Below are positions 2,928 through 25,644 of a DNA stretch of 64,000 nucleotides, in pieces (the first letter of the stretch is position 1; every line of letters begins with the position of its first letter). Source of the DNA: Bacillota bacterium (GTDB lineage Bacteria; Bacillota; DSM-12270; Thermacetogeniales; Thermacetogeniaceae); the NCBI GenBank assembly GCA_013177945.1, contig JABLXW010000001.1, forward strand, positions 124,001 to 188,000. The letters run 5' to 3'. The translations under genes and the position numbers were made by a program. The notes under the pieces are model-generated. The model searched no databases. It was not told the DNA's origin and saw nothing but the letters and a program-made list of their open reading frames with translations.

Positions 2928-2947
2928 GATTGTGGAGATGATGCAAG

Positions 2948-2976
2948 GCAGGAATTTTAGCAACTCCGTCGAATAT
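2948..2976 (+). promoter_or_regulatory. Sigma-H promoter of spoVS
   Basis: The -35 box GCAGGAATT (2948-2956) and -10 box GTCGAATAT (2968-2976) match the sigma-H consensus RNAGGAWWW / RNNGAATWW at every specified base, with an 11-bp spacer. Transcription should start near 2983, about 70 bp before spoVS. B. subtilis spoVS is known to depend on sigma-H. Confidence 0.8.
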
Positions 2977-3054
2977 ACATGTAAAAAGCCGGGTTAATTT
3001 CACCCGATTATCAAGGTCAAATTTGGTAACTTCAGAAGTACAAAGGAGGAAATA

Positions 3055-19726: not shown

Positions 19727-20533
19727 TTGCGGATTGCATTGCTTCAACTGGCGCCGGGCCAGAAAACTCCCGAAGACTGCCGGGCCCATGTAAAATCCCT
19801 GGTCGAGGAAAAAGTTCCCCATGACGTTGATCTGGTCGTCCTTCCGGAGCTCTGGACAACAGGACACCTTCACCAAAATGTTATGAGGGAAGCCGAGATG
19901 CTCCAGGGCCCGACAAATGCGCTCCTGGCCGGACTGGCCAGAGAAAGGGGGATCTACATTGTAGGGGGCTCGCTCCCGATCAAAACCCCCCAGGGAATTC
20001 ATAATTTCTGTGCAGTCCACGGCCCGGGAGGATACCTGGGAGGTTACGCGAAGGTTCATCCCTTCGGGCCTTTGGGAGAGAAAGAATGGTGTATACCCGG
20101 CAGGAACCTGTACCTTTTTTCGACAGCTTATGGTAAGATGGGAGTGATGATTTGCTACGACCTGCGCTTTCCGGAGGTGGCGCGCCTCCTGGCAAAAGCC
20201 GGGGCGCTGGTAATTTTCGTGCCCGCCGCTTTTCCCGATGCCCGCATTGAACAGTGGGAACTCCTTCTAAGGGCACGTGCGGTTGAAAATCAAGTTTTCA
20301 TAGCAGGTGTAAATAAAGCAGGAAGAGAGGGAAGTCTAATCTTTCCCGGAAGGTCACTTGTGGTGGCTCCCGATGGGAAAGTCCTCGCTGCAGGCTCAAA
20401 TGACGAAGATATTATCTTGTGCGAGATAGATTTTAAACTGATCGATCAGGTCCGGAGCGCAATTCCCTGCTGGTGCGACCTTTCTCCCTGGGCCTACCGG
20501 CTGCCTGAAGAAGATCGGGAGGTTCTGTCATGA
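19727..20533 (+). CDS. Nitrilase-superfamily C-N hydrolase
   Basis: Carbon-nitrogen hydrolase, probably an omega-amidase-like or other small-amide hydrolase; the substrate cannot be told. The Glu-Lys-Cys triad is Glu41 in LPELWTTG, Lys109 in YAKVHPFG and Cys143 in MICYDLRFPE (numbering from TTG 19727). TTG 19727 was chosen because GGGAG lies 8 bp upstream and the protein begins MRIALLQLAP; GTG 19718 is the alternative. The stop overlaps the racemase-like gene by four bases (ATGA), which suggests a linked function. Confidence 0.9.
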   Translation: MRIALLQLAPGQKTPEDCRAHVKSLVEEKVPHDVDLVVLPELWTTGHLHQNVMREAEMLQGPTNALLAGLARERGIYIVGGSLPIKTPQGIHNFCAVHGPGGYLGGYAKVHPFGPLGEKEWCIPGRNLYLFSTAYGKMGVMICYDLRFPEVARLLAKAGALVIFVPAAFPDARIEQWELLLRARAVENQVFIAGVNKAGREGSLIFPGRSLVVAPDGKVLAAGSNDEDIILCEIDFKLIDQVRSAIPCWCDLSPWAYRLPEEDREVLS

Positions 20534-21774
20534 GATATCCTGTAATGTACCGGGCGCTTTACAACCTGCCTGCCCCCCGGGTTGAAAACGTTCAGGATGA
20601 GGTAAAAAAGGCCCTTCAAAAAGCAAAATTCTGGAGGGGGATCAAAAAGGGGGCGCGCATTGCGGTAACAGCAGGAAGCCGGGGGATTTCGGACATCCTG
20701 CCGATTCTGGTTACTATTCTCAACATGCTCAAGGAAAACGGTCTCCGGCCCTACCTCGTCCCCGCCATGGGGTCCCATGGAGGAGGCACACCCGAGGGGC
20801 AGAAAAAAGTTCTGGCCAGCCTGGGAATCACCGAGGAAACAACAGGTGTTCCCATCAAAGCAACAGGGGAAGCAATAAAACTTGGCGAGATTACACCTGA
20901 AGTTCCTGTTTTTTTCAATCAGGCAGCCCTGGAAAGCGACGGCATTATTGTGGTCAACCGGGTGAAACCCCATACTTCGTTTCGGGGCCCGGTGGAAAGC
21001 GGCTTGATGAAAATGCTTGCCGTCGGCCTGGGCAATCCCCAGGGAGCGGCTGCACTCCATAAATTTGGCCCCGCGGGGCTCAGGGAGTACATTCCGCAGG
21101 TGGCAAACTTTATTCTTGCCAGACTTCCCGTTTTATACGGCATTGCGATCATCGAAAACGCGCGGGAGCAAACCGCCCACATCGAGGGAGTAGAACCAGA
21201 GGAATTTTTCGGCAAGGAACAACAGTTATTGAACAGAGCCCGCTCTTTAATGCCCCGGCTGCCCTTTCAGGAACTTGATCTGCTTGTCGTGAAAGAAATG
21301 GGGAAGTGCTTCAGCGGCACCGGGATGGATACCAACCTGATCGGGCGCCTGCGGATTCAGGGCGAACCCGAACCCGAAGCACCCCGGATTAAACGGATTG
21401 CCGTCCTCGACCTGGCGGAGCGCTCGGAGGGCAACGCTACAGGAATTGGTCTTGCCGACTTCACAACAGACCGCCTCCTCTCTAAAGTCGACTGGGAGGC
21501 GACATACCTCAACGTGCTCAGCACGACCTTTGTCCAGCGGGCGATGATCCCCATGCACTTTCCTACAGATGAGGAAACGATTCAAAAGGCGCTTCTGAGT
21601 CTGGGAAGCAGGAATCCCGAAGGGGCCCGGGTTCTGGTGATTCAAAATACACTAGAGTTGGAGGAGCTCGTGTTTTCCGCGGCCCTTTTCGAGGAGGCAA
21701 AAGCTCACCCTTTTTTGACGATCCTGGGGGAAGGGCGGGAAATGACCTTTGATGGTGGAAAGCTTCTTCTCTGA
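20530..21774 (+). CDS. LarA-like 2-hydroxyacid racemase/epimerase family (DUF2088)
   Basis: 414-aa protein of the nickel-pincer lactate-racemase superfamily. Marks are MGSHGGGTPEGQ (80-91) and RVKPHTSFRG (144-153), the latter a conserved Lys-His region. The MGSHGG form marks a LarA homologue group rather than classical LarA, and members act on diverse 2-hydroxyacids. No LarB/LarC/LarE cofactor genes lie nearby. Its place before a GlcD/GlcF-type oxidase suggests it interconverts stereoisomers of the acid that the oxidase takes; this is inferred. Confidence 0.75.
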   Translation: MRYPVMYRALYNLPAPRVENVQDEVKKALQKAKFWRGIKKGARIAVTAGSRGISDILPILVTILNMLKENGLRPYLVPAMGSHGGGTPEGQKKVLASLGITEETTGVPIKATGEAIKLGEITPEVPVFFNQAALESDGIIVVNRVKPHTSFRGPVESGLMKMLAVGLGNPQGAAALHKFGPAGLREYIPQVANFILARLPVLYGIAIIENAREQTAHIEGVEPEEFFGKEQQLLNRARSLMPRLPFQELDLLVVKEMGKCFSGTGMDTNLIGRLRIQGEPEPEAPRIKRIAVLDLAERSEGNATGIGLADFTTDRLLSKVDWEATYLNVLSTTFVQRAMIPMHFPTDEETIQKALLSLGSRNPEGARVLVIQNTLELEELVFSAALFEEAKAHPFLTILGEGREMTFDGGKLLL

Positions 21775-21812
21775 AAACTAAAAACGGTTCTCTCAACAGG
21801 AGGTTCCGGAAA

Positions 21813-23204
21813 ATGCTTCAGTCCTCTTTGATCAACGAAATCAAGAAGATTGTGGGTAAGGAAAACGTCCTCGCCACCCTTGAGGAACGGTTGTGCTACG
21901 GCTACGACAGCACCCCGGAGGCCTTTCTTCCCGACCTGGTGGTCCGCCCGGATTCCGCCGAGCAAATACAAAAAATCATCAAACTGGCCAATCTTCATCT
22001 TTTTCCCGTCATTCCCCGGGGAGCCGGAACGGGTCTGAGCGGCGGATCACTGCCGGTTAAAGGCGGGGTTGTCCTGGACCTCACCAGGATGAACCGCATT
22101 CTGGAAATAGATGAAGAAAACCTGGTTGCCGTAGTGGAACCCGGAGTTGTGACATCCCATCTCCAGGAGGAAGCGGAAAAACGCGAGCTGTTCTATCCAC
22201 CTGATCCCGCCAGCTTAAAGACCTCAACTATTGGCGGCAATGTTGCGGAATGTGCAGGAGGCCCCCGCGCCTTTAAATACGGTGTCACCAGGGACTACGT
22301 ACTCGGCCTGGAAGTGGTGACGCCAACGGGGGAAATTTTAAGAACAGGCGGCAAAACGGTCAAGAGTGTGACCGGCTATGATTTAATCCGGCTTTATACA
22401 GGTTCCGAAGGTACTTTGGGAATCATTACGAAAATTATTCTCCGTTTGATCCCTAAACCGGAAGCAAAAGAAACGATGATGGCGGTTTACGAGCGGCTTG
22501 ACGATGCCGCTAAAACCGTAACGCTCACCATTAAACGGGGAATCATTCCCGTCACCCTGGAATTGATGGATGACCTGACCATCCGCTGTGTGGAAAACTA
22601 CCTTCAAATCGGGCTTCCCTTAGATGCCGAGGCGATTCTGATCATCGAGGTCGACGGGCCCGCCGATCTGGTGAAAAAACAAACCGAACAGGTGGCAGAA
22701 CTCTGCAGGGCAAGTGGGGCACGAGAAATTAAGATCGCAAGGAACGAAAAAGAAAGAGAGGAGATCTGGGCGGCCCGCAGGGCTGTTTCTGCTGCAGTTG
22801 TTCAGATCAAACCCACAAAGATCAGCGAAGACATTGCCGTGCCCCGGAGTCAAATCCCCCAGATGATCAGAAGGTTAAAGGAAATCGCCTCCCGCTACCA
22901 GCTGAATTTGGTGATTTTCGGGCATGCAGGGGACGGAAATCTGCATCCCAACATTCTTTGCGACCAGAACGATCCCGAGGAAATGGAACGGGTCGAAAAA
23001 GCGATAGGAGAACTGTTTCAGGCAGCAGTGGAATTGGGAGGGACTTTATCCGGCGAGCACGGGATCGGGACGATGAAGGCACCTTACCTTAAACTGGAAA
23101 CCGGAGAAGCAGGGTATGAGGTCATGCGGGCGATCAAGAAAGCGCTAGACCCCAACAACATTCTCAACCCTGGCAAAATCTTTGGGAGTGAGCGAAATGG
23201 ATAA
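21813..23204 (+). CDS. glcD: FAD-linked 2-hydroxyacid oxidase subunit (GlcD/D-lactate dehydrogenase type)
   Basis: FAD-binding type 4 oxidoreductase (463 aa). The PCMH-type FAD domain is at about 40-215, with PRGAGTGLSGG and GGNVAECAGGPRAFKYGVT. The C-terminal FAD-oxidase domain holds FGHAGDGNLHPNI and GTLSGEHGIG and ends LDPNNILNPGKIFG. The ATG follows AGGAGG. The stop lies 8 bp inside the Fe-S partner gene, so the two are made together. Substrate is glycolate or D-lactate; the sequence does not decide. Confidence 0.93.
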   Translation: MLQSSLINEIKKIVGKENVLATLEERLCYGYDSTPEAFLPDLVVRPDSAEQIQKIIKLANLHLFPVIPRGAGTGLSGGSLPVKGGVVLDLTRMNRILEIDEENLVAVVEPGVVTSHLQEEAEKRELFYPPDPASLKTSTIGGNVAECAGGPRAFKYGVTRDYVLGLEVVTPTGEILRTGGKTVKSVTGYDLIRLYTGSEGTLGIITKIILRLIPKPEAKETMMAVYERLDDAAKTVTLTIKRGIIPVTLELMDDLTIRCVENYLQIGLPLDAEAILIIEVDGPADLVKKQTEQVAELCRASGAREIKIARNEKEREEIWAARRAVSAAVVQIKPTKISEDIAVPRSQIPQMIRRLKEIASRYQLNLVIFGHAGDGNLHPNILCDQNDPEEMERVEKAIGELFQAAVELGGTLSGEHGIGTMKAPYLKLETGEAGYEVMRAIKKALDPNNILNPGKIFGSERNG

Positions 23205-24489
23205 CCTTGCAAGGGCTGCGGATTATCTCAACCGGTGCAGCAAGTGCGGCGGGTGCCAGGCTGTTTGCCCCCTTTATCAAGAGACCAGGGCCGAGCCTTA
23301 TGTCGCAAGAGGAAAGCTTTTTCTTTTAAAAAACCACCTTGAGGGGAAGCTTCCCCTCTCTGCCAAAATGAAAGAGATTATGAGTTTATGCCTTTTGTGC
23401 AAAGCCTGCGTAAACCAATGTCCCAATAACATCCCGGTGGATCAGCTGGTCCTGGGAGCACGCCAGAAAATTGCGCAGGAAAAAGGGATCTCATTTGTCA
23501 AAAAGAACGTTTTTCAGCACCTCCTCAAGAACAACGGCAGGCTCACCCTGGCAGCCCGGCTCGGGTGGTTGTACCAGCGCGCCGGAGTCCAGTGGCTGGT
23601 ACGAAAGAGCAACATTTTAAAAGTTTTTGGGGAAGAAATCGTTCAAAAAGAACGCCTTCTTCCCAAAATGGCGAAGCGCCCCTTTCGGAAACAGGTCCCC
23701 AGGTTTTTGACGTGCTCCCGGCCCAAGCTCCGGGTCGCGTATTACACAGGCTGCCTTACTAACTTTGTCTATCCCGCCACAGGCCATGCGGTGGTCAACG
23801 TCCTCCGCCGCCACGACCTGGAAATTTTAATCCCCGAGCAGTGGTGCTGCGGCATTCCCGCCCTGGCCAGCGGCGATGAAAAGACGGCAGCCGAACTGGC
23901 CCGAAAAAATGTGGAGGTATTCCAGAGAGCCGGAGTAGATGCTGTGATTACCGATTGCGCCTCCTGCGGAAGCATGCTGAAAGAATACGCCGATCTTTTA
24001 GGAACGCCTGAAGCAAAAGCCTTTGCCGGTAAAGTTTTAGACTTCAGCCAGTTCCTGAGCGAAGCTGTTTCTTTCCGGGCAGGTGAAATTGAAGTTCCGC
24101 GCCTTGCAACCTACCATGATCCGTGCCACCTGAAACGGGGGCAGGGGGTATTCGAAGCTCCCCGGAGGTTGATCAGGAAAGTGCCGGGCCTCAGATTCAA
24201 GGAAATGAAGGAGCCTGATCGGTGCTGTGGAGCGGCCGGTTCCTTCAACCTGACCTATTACAATCTCGCCGCCAAAATCGGCCGGCGCAAAGTGCAAAAT
24301 ATCCGGGAGACAGGTGCCGATTTCCTGGTTACAGGGTGTCCTTCCTGCATCATGCAACTTCGCCATATGCTTGAACTGGAAAATTCCCCTGTTCAGGTTC
24401 TTCATTTAGCCGAACTGCTGAGCATGACCTATAGCTCACAGGGTCAAGCAAACGAATCGGGGAGGGGGTGTTCTCATGCAGTATCTTGA
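23197..24489 (+). CDS. glcF: Fe-S / CCG-domain subunit of 2-hydroxyacid oxidase (GlcF type)
   Basis: 430-aa electron-transfer partner of GlcD. Two 4Fe-4S sites: Cys14, Cys17, Cys20, Cys24 and Cys65, Cys68, Cys71, Cys75. Two CCG (heterodisulfide-reductase-like) modules follow: one with GCLTNF, WCCGIPA and DCASCGSM, the other with HDPCHLKRGQG, RCCGAAGSFNL and CPSCIMQL. ATG 23197 was chosen with GGGAG 8 bp upstream. It passes electrons from GlcD-bound FAD to a membrane or soluble acceptor; a menaquinone or ETF route is possible but unseen. Confidence 0.92.
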   Translation: MDNLARAADYLNRCSKCGGCQAVCPLYQETRAEPYVARGKLFLLKNHLEGKLPLSAKMKEIMSLCLLCKACVNQCPNNIPVDQLVLGARQKIAQEKGISFVKKNVFQHLLKNNGRLTLAARLGWLYQRAGVQWLVRKSNILKVFGEEIVQKERLLPKMAKRPFRKQVPRFLTCSRPKLRVAYYTGCLTNFVYPATGHAVVNVLRRHDLEILIPEQWCCGIPALASGDEKTAAELARKNVEVFQRAGVDAVITDCASCGSMLKEYADLLGTPEAKAFAGKVLDFSQFLSEAVSFRAGEIEVPRLATYHDPCHLKRGQGVFEAPRRLIRKVPGLRFKEMKEPDRCCGAAGSFNLTYYNLAAKIGRRKVQNIRETGADFLVTGCPSCIMQLRHMLELENSPVQVLHLAELLSMTYSSQGQANESGRGCSHAVS

Positions 24490-25078
24490 AACTTTGCTGG
24501 AAGCCCAGCGGGAGTTCGCAAAACACGATCCCCAAAAAATGGCGGAAGCAAGCGGCGCCGAATATGATCCCCGCGAAAACGTGATTCGGGTTCTCTATCT
24601 GAACAAATCTTACAGGGTTTTTTATCCGGAAGGAAGAATCTTGGCAGAAGAAGAGCCGACCAATCTGGCTGTTGAAGAAAAAGCGCTGATTCTCCAATAC
24701 CTCAGCCAGGCCCCGGGGCATCCCCTAACAAAGCGCTGGATTTCCTATTCCGAGCTTCCAAACGGAATGTACCATGATCGCCCTTTTAAGGTCGAAGCTG
24801 TCGAGCCTCTTGCCGAAACCTTTGGAGGCCAACCCGGAAAATTGCTGGAAGCTGCACAGGCCCTGGGTGGAAGTGAACTGAAAATCGGAGATCTCGGGGT
24901 TGTGATCCCGGTTCTCCCACGCATCCTGGTTGCGGTCATTCTATGGGTGGGAGATGAGGAATTTCCGGCAAGGGCCAACATGGTTTTCGATGCTGTAACC
25001 CCAAGGTACCTTTCTACCGCTGCCGTATACGTTTTGGGTTCCATTCTCACAAAACGCCTGAAAGAAGCCGCAGCTTGA
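24476..25078 (+). CDS. DUF3786 domain protein
   Basis: 200-aa protein of the DUF3786 family, function unknown. Conserved features seen are NLAVEEKALILQYLSQA, WISYSELPNG (about 98-107), IPVLPRILVAVILW and PARANMVFDAVTPRYLSTA. The family is common in acetogens and sulfate reducers, often near C1 or redox genes. It overlaps the GlcF gene by 14 bp and is the last gene of this operon. No signal peptide or cofactor motif. Confidence 0.8.
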   Translation: MQYLETLLEAQREFAKHDPQKMAEASGAEYDPRENVIRVLYLNKSYRVFYPEGRILAEEEPTNLAVEEKALILQYLSQAPGHPLTKRWISYSELPNGMYHDRPFKVEAVEPLAETFGGQPGKLLEAAQALGGSELKIGDLGVVIPVLPRILVAVILWVGDEEFPARANMVFDAVTPRYLSTAAVYVLGSILTKRLKEAAA

Positions 25079-25081
25079 AAA

Positions 25082-25111
25082 GCATAAAAAGCCCCTCCTG
25101 TTTTCATAATA
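25082..25111 (+). promoter_or_regulatory. Sigma-G-type forespore promoter of the starch-binding-module gene
   Basis: GCATA (25082-25086) and CATAATA (25105-25111) with an 18-bp spacer fit the sigma-G consensus GHATR-N17/18-CATWHTA with no mismatch. The expected start is near 25118. The -10 box lies in the left arm and loop of the hairpin described next. Confidence 0.6.
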
Positions 25112-25136
25112 AAAATAATAAATGAAAACAGGAGGG
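25093..25136 (+). promoter_or_regulatory. Hairpin masking the ribosome site of the downstream gene
   Basis: Perfect 15-bp stem: CCCTCCTGTTTTCAT (25093-25107) pairs with ATGAAAACAGGAGGG (25122-25136) around a 14-nt A/T loop. The right arm contains the Shine-Dalgarno AGGAGGG of the gene at 25145. Read-through RNA from the upstream operon would fold and hide the site; RNA started near 25118 lacks the left arm and would be translatable. On the - strand the stem is followed by a T-run, so it may also act as a terminator for leftward transcription. Confidence 0.7.
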
Positions 25137-25144
25137 ACTTGAAA

Positions 25145-25444
25145 GTGTACGATATGCATCCCGCATTCTCTATTTCACCGATTCCCAAGCGGGTCGGAGA
25201 CAAAGTGAAAATCAGATACCACGGCATCCTTGCCCAGGCCGGGGCGGATCAGATCTGGCTTCACACCGGTTACGGAACGGGACCCTGGCAGAACATCTAC
25301 GATTATAAAATGAGCAAAGCAGGAGATGAATGGGAGCATACCATCGAGATTACAAGAAGCGGTCGGTTCAACTTCTGTTTTAAAGACAGCGCCAACAACT
25401 GGGACAACAATAACGGCCTCAACTGGAGCTACCAGATTAGCTGA
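25145..25444 (+). CDS. Stand-alone carbohydrate-binding module protein (CBM25-like)
   Basis: 99-aa protein that looks like a single starch/glycogen-binding module and nothing more. It shows the beta-sandwich pattern with VKIRYHGILAQAGADQIWLH, a WEHTIEI strand and the C-terminal FNFCFKDSANNWDNNNG segment typical of CBM25. No signal peptide, linker or catalytic domain, so it should act inside the cell. GTG 25145 was chosen because AGGAGGG ends 8 bp upstream; TTG 25139 is too close. The sigma-G-like promoter and masking hairpin suggest expression in the forespore. Function unknown; binding to storage glycogen is a guess. Confidence 0.75.
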   Translation: MYDMHPAFSISPIPKRVGDKVKIRYHGILAQAGADQIWLHTGYGTGPWQNIYDYKMSKAGDEWEHTIEITRSGRFNFCFKDSANNWDNNNGLNWSYQIS

Positions 25445-25468
25445 AATTAGCAGGGGTAAACGAGATGG

Positions 25469-25495
25469 GGAGAGAAATTTTTCTCTCCTCTTTTT
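25469..25495 (+). terminator. Rho-independent terminator after the CBM gene
   Basis: Stem GGAGAGAA (25469-25476) / TTCTCTCC (25481-25488) with a 4-nt loop, then TCTTTTT. It lies 25 bp after the stop and closes the rightward transcription unit. The remaining bases to bfn (25496-25644) hold no gene; bfn and this unit converge here. Confidence 0.85.
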
Positions 25496-25644
25496 AATTC
25501 CCTGTTTTTTATTCTCATTGTTTCAGATAATGCAAGGGAGCAATCAGGATCGTTCGCCAGGGGTTCCGTAACTTTAACGTTCCTGCCCGTCGGCAGCCAG
25601 GGTATGGGCCCGGCGATTTGAGTGTAAATTTCCGAAAGAGGTTT

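Follow-up and report, generated by a model that had tools for sequence, protein, structure and literature searches.

A forespore-type promoter overlapping a Shine-Dalgarno-masking hairpin in front of a lone CBM53/CBM25 gene, a candidate read-through insulator

Two described genes have, or are proposed to have, a promoter inside a hairpin that hides their own ribosome-binding site. The lysozyme gene e of phage T4 is carried on long early transcripts in which it is masked, while late promoters inside the 5' strand of the hairpin give RNA free of that arm, and the measured effect of masking is 100-fold (PMC3014915). In Bacillus subtilis, a hairpin of at least 20 pairs at sigG has been proposed to block read-through RNA from spoIIG, and RNA from the gene's own promoter cannot fold into it (PMC5942855).

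The locus described here resembles both. As at T4 gene e, the long RNA is masked (here by prediction) and the promoter lies within the region of the 5' arm; however, the T4 gene is a phage lysis timer, there is no homology between the two, and the 100-fold effect belongs to T4 only. The original prediction had named gene e as its precedent, and the shared logic holds, but gene e is not the sole closest case because B. subtilis sigG uses the same proposed device. In both sigG and the gene studied here a spore-specific forespore promoter overlaps the 5' arm, the gene stands behind a co-directional operon, and its own RNA lacks the hairpin. The B. subtilis gene encodes a sigma factor behind a sigma-F-type promoter, whereas here a late sigma-G promoter precedes a carbohydrate-binding protein. 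Thus, a promoter in a masking hairpin is a device of a known kind, with T4 gene e as the established example and B. subtilis sigG as a proposed one. What is newer is its cargo here, namely a CBM53/CBM25 protein that stands alone.

The genome studied here also has its own sigG (locus L116, positions 1426-1485, contig C13), where a stem covers the Shine-Dalgarno (SD) sequence and the -10 of GTATA...CGGTAATAAT falls within its left arm. The sigG promoter is sigma-F-like, and the layout is that seen at the CBM gene, apart from an additional terminator upstream of sigG. The device is apparently used at least twice in this genome, judging from these two layouts.

Layout of the locus

We analysed a window of 64 kb, meaning the whole stretch of DNA under study. 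The features around the CBM gene are as follows.

20530-24489, plus strand: 2-hydroxyacid oxidase-type operon (Lar_N-domain protein, GlcD-like FAD protein, GlcF-like Fe-S protein)
24476-25078, plus strand: DUF3786 gene, last of the upstream operon (Pfam DUF3786; same gene upstream in orthologues)
25082-25086, plus strand: sigma-G -35 box GCATA (GNATA kept in 16/17 close orthologues)
25093-25107, plus strand: left arm (anti-SD), CCCTCCTGTTTTCAT (perfect 15-bp pairing; co-varies with the SD in relatives)
25105-25111, plus strand: sigma-G -10 box CATAATA ([CA]ATAMTA at 18 bp in 16/17 orthologues)
25117-25119, plus strand: predicted transcription start, in the loop (from the usual -10 to +1 distance)
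25122-25136, plus strand: right arm, ATGAAAACAGGAGGG, with the SD inside (hairpin pairing and predicted fold)
25130-25136, plus strand: Shine-Dalgarno sequence AGGAGGG, 8 nt ahead of the GTG at 25145
25145-25444, plus strand: lone CBM53/CBM25 protein, 99 aa, GTG start (Pfam CBM53 over cut-off; start agrees with homologues)
25467-25498, plus strand: intrinsic terminator 3' of the CBM gene (terminator-like stem and T run)

The perfect 15-bp hairpin that had been claimed over AGGAGGG was confirmed, with 15 perfect pairs around a 14-nt loop. It is the sole perfect inverted repeat of at least 14 bp (loop up to 40 nt) in the window; eight shuffled windows together contained one. The promoter was described as a sigma-G site without mismatch, and GCATA-N18-CATAATA (25082-25111) indeed proved to be the only match to the strict pattern GNATA-N17..19-CATAMTA when both strands of the window were scanned. 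The sole inverted repeat of this length and the sole strict sigma-G site in 64 kb therefore overlap each other. Genome-wide, the strict pattern has 3 matches against about 2.6 expected by chance (our own estimate). Since this count is near chance, the sigma-G match alone proves little and we dropped the genome-wide pattern as proof; it is conservation that carries the case. A sigma-F promoter was rejected because no GG precedes the -10, unlike at sigG of the same genome, and a translation start at the TTG at 25139 was rejected because it is 2 nt from the SD and not common to the homologues.

The placement of the -10 box in the left arm needed correction. Only its CAT lies in the arm and the rest is in the loop; the arm occupies the -35/-10 spacer, as it does in relatives, and reaches three bases into the -10. 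The predicted start falls inside the loop, in agreement with the claim that the gene's own RNA lacks the left arm. The hairpin region folds at -31.9 kcal/mol (z = -7.6), and none of 200 shuffles was as stable. In contrast, RNA beginning at 25118 folds at -6.6 kcal/mol (z = +0.5), no better than shuffles.

Promoter conservation and the upstream operon

We compared the CBM gene with its close orthologues, which come from 17 genomes of the same family, the window's own genome included. The promoter GNATA-18-[CA]ATAMTA is present in 16 of the 17, with a spacer of exactly 18 bp in each. The CBM gene thus has a conserved promoter of the GNATA-N17/18-CATAMTA form that marks the sigma-G regulon. In all 16 promoter-bearing orthologues the anti-SD arm is located in the -35/-10 spacer, and because of this position the gene's own RNA cannot contain it. 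With the boxes kept at 18 bp, the predicted start is inside the loop in 15 of the 16. L012 has neither promoter nor arm, and the stem of L019 is weak. Conservation of promoter and hairpin in relatives had been suggested as a check, and it came out in favour of the original prediction.

The GlcD/GlcF/DUF3786 operon is a possible source of read-through RNA into the CBM gene. The stop codon of the DUF3786 gene is 3 bp before the -35 box in the window; in the 15 orthologues that allowed the measurement, the upstream gene either ends 2-5 bp short of this box or runs 6 bp into it. Thus, no terminator fits between the upstream gene and the promoter. The DUF3786 gene is kept beside the CBM gene in close orthologues, and in L008 only a short piece of it is seen, at a contig end.

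As the stem lies directly behind the operon, the hairpin could itself be the operon's intrinsic terminator or attenuator on the plus strand, so that insulation would act on transcription and not on translation. In L009 and L019 there are 5-6 T in the 8 bases after the stem, as this would require. However, the window has ACTTGAAAG after the stem, without a U tract, and the mean T count is 3.0 of 8. The loops are 14-40 nt long, the SD is always within the stem, and the consensus terminator scan does not list the CBM-gene hairpin. We therefore regard a plus-strand terminator as unlikely. It is less likely still that the hairpin is a minus-strand terminator, one that halts antisense RNA arising at the nuclease/ComM-like genes, which are convergent. 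Read on that strand, the stem runs into CTTTTTATGC, the flank is A-rich (mean 5.3 of 8), and the AAAA behind GNATA would serve as a U tract. However, Pelotomaculum-type CBM genes without a hairpin have the same A run after their -35 box, so the promoter explains it, and a minus-strand terminator would not need the SD inside the stem in every relative.

Masking of the SD was also compared with gene layout in 75 distant homologues. SD pairing at or below -12 kcal/mol was found in 14 of the 39 whose upstream gene is co-directional and not followed by a terminator, compared with 2 of the 36 where a terminator is present or the neighbour is divergent, a contrast built on simple ORF and terminator calls (p = 0.0016; 0.04 if the Moorella group is counted once). 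In Moorella the upstream gene differs, and it looks like a homocitrate-synthase-type gene, but the arm again lies between a -35-like and a -10-like box. From these layouts, masking of the SD appears to stand in for a terminator. Sigma-G-like sites scoring at least 10 of 11 occur upstream of 18 of 80 distant homologues (null 1.75%), among them the second CBM gene of this genome (L002, spacer 19), and on the reverse strand in 0 of 80.

Two single loci may be added. In the distant homologue L088 (about 2940-3010), AGCCTCCTTT and AAAGGAGGCT form the arms of a hairpin whose left arm lies just behind a GCATA box, apparently an independent case of a masking arm. A second lone CBM gene of the window's own genome (L002, 1489-1970, minus strand, contig C8) is preceded by GCATA-N19-CATACTA and lacks a masking hairpin; the closest ORF on its upstream side is divergently oriented.

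Covariation of the arms and a model for insulation

The arm and the SD match each other gene by gene. L014 pairs CCTCCG with CGGAGG, L015 pairs CACCCCC with GGGGGTG, and in the outer stem of L019 ATGAC pairs with GTCAT. The mean duplex energy was -16.6 kcal/mol for arms with their own partners, -13.5 for swapped partners and -8.6 for shuffled spacers. Not one of 20000 permutations paired as well as the own partners did, and a set reduced to 12 representatives gave p = 1.5e-4, although shared ancestry of the relatives inflates these figures. Column counting in the MAFFT alignment A1 gave two-sided changes in 8 of 13 stem pairs. The covariation score (0.327 versus 0.220; likewise inflated by shared ancestry) and the fraction of paired cells (76.9% versus 71.0%) were higher than in any of 500 shuffles or any slid register. 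In alignment A1 the right arm of L007 is put in the wrong place, and pairing is out of register in the window, L006, L008 and L014, so that column counts understate the pairing; for this reason the register-free permutation was used alongside.

That the pairing is a by-product, with a promoter spacer rich in pyrimidines matching a purine-rich SD as a matter of course, seems to us about as improbable as a minus-strand terminator, because own arms pair better than swapped arms, the stem is kept through U-A to C-G and C-G to A-U exchanges, and CBM promoters elsewhere lack such spacers, although CTCCTTTTT before the -10 is common to many relatives and short CTCCT...AGGAGG pairs are frequent genome-wide (117/120 versus 80/76 in controls), too common to be informative as evidence. 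The single-position exchanges would be hard to explain unless the arm and the SD co-evolve. The predicted fold and the covariation both indicate that the SD is sequestered in the longer RNA.

Based on these results, we propose that the CBM gene is probably a forespore gene that carries its own insulator against read-through, such that its own RNA is translatable and RNA running in from the operon is masked. RNA polymerase containing sigma-G would begin transcription in the hairpin loop. The resulting leader of about 27 nt would leave AGGAGGG exposed, and the CBM protein would be made in the forespore, apparently nowhere else. Conversely, RNA from the GlcD/GlcF/DUF3786 operon would carry both arms, fold the stem over the SD, and be translated poorly or not at all. 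The left arm may be placed in the -35/-10 spacer because RNA from the gene's own promoter never includes that stretch. Both SpoIVA and sigG are present in the window's genome.

The lone CBM protein and spore glycogen

The protein had been described as a 99-aa CBM25-like module. Its length and its lone state stand, but the Pfam match over cut-off is CBM53 (38.5 bits, cut-off 27.6), while CBM25 is just under (25.6, cut-off 27.3). Its sequence matches in the PDB are CBM25 only. The structure model (pLDDT 90) has 2c3x, a CBM25, as its best PDB fold match, which is modest (E = 1.6e-3, TM about 0.5). Residues H40, W48 and W86 align with H26, W34 and W74 of BhCBM25, which we take to be ligand residues. 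The two tryptophans, W48 and W86, do not vary among 22 homologues; H40 is mostly kept, with R in some orthologues.

Known CBM25/CBM53 starch-binding modules (2laa, 2c3v) are parts of amylases, whereas the protein here stands alone, without an enzyme domain. As no signal peptide is evident in its sequence, it probably remains cytoplasmic in whatever cell produces it. The statement that such a protein has no described function in spores agrees with the literature searched, where we found no lone CBM25/53 spore protein described; the main text of a Moorella spore proteome paper mentions none. We have narrowed this point to a hypothesis on glycogen.

Spores of Clostridioides difficile contain glycogen that matters for resistance, and its location is unknown (PMC11423593). 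Homologues of the CBM protein occur in 107 of 200 genomes. Across the 200 genomes, 82 have both CBM and the glycogen synthase GlgA, 25 and 25 have one alone, and 68 have neither, in counts not corrected for phylogeny; thus, 25 of the 107 CBM genomes have no GlgA over cut-off. The CBM also goes with SpoIVA across these genomes. Among GlgA-bearing genomes it is found in 81 of 95 with SpoIVA and in 1 of 12 without, again with phylogeny not corrected for. By our reading of the coordinates, nine genomes from four families have glgA no more than about 2 kb away from the CBM gene. At L048 (2911-4843), from a Moorella thermoacetica strain, glgA is the next gene and is convergent with the lone CBM gene. 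Lone CBM genes also occur in tandem pairs or triplets (L025 of genome G053, G023, G069, G107, and L032 of genome G130).

We suggest that the protein probably binds alpha-1,4-glucan, and that its ligand would most likely be glycogen stored in the spore. Plausibly, then, it is a forespore glycogen-binding protein, which is the simplest reading of the domain and its distribution. A wider hypothesis, which we hold only tentatively, is that the lone CBM53/25 family, widespread among spore-forming anaerobes, is a dedicated forespore glycogen binder that loads or organizes spore glycogen. Its genes would repeatedly have gained an SD-masking arm in the sigma-G spacer where the gene ahead is co-directional and no terminator follows it, and this would keep the protein out of vegetative cells.

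In sum, the CBM gene offers a clear natural case in which the same bases encode a promoter and an RNA insulator, and covariation across 16 genomes supports it. It also suggests a condition under which the device is used, namely where a terminator is missing. Additionally, it provides a candidate protein for the question of where the glycogen of C. difficile spores is held (PMC11423593). If the protein is a forespore alpha-glucan binder in spore formers that make glycogen, the handling of glycogen in the spore would become directly testable in harmless species, for example in Moorella thermoacetica.
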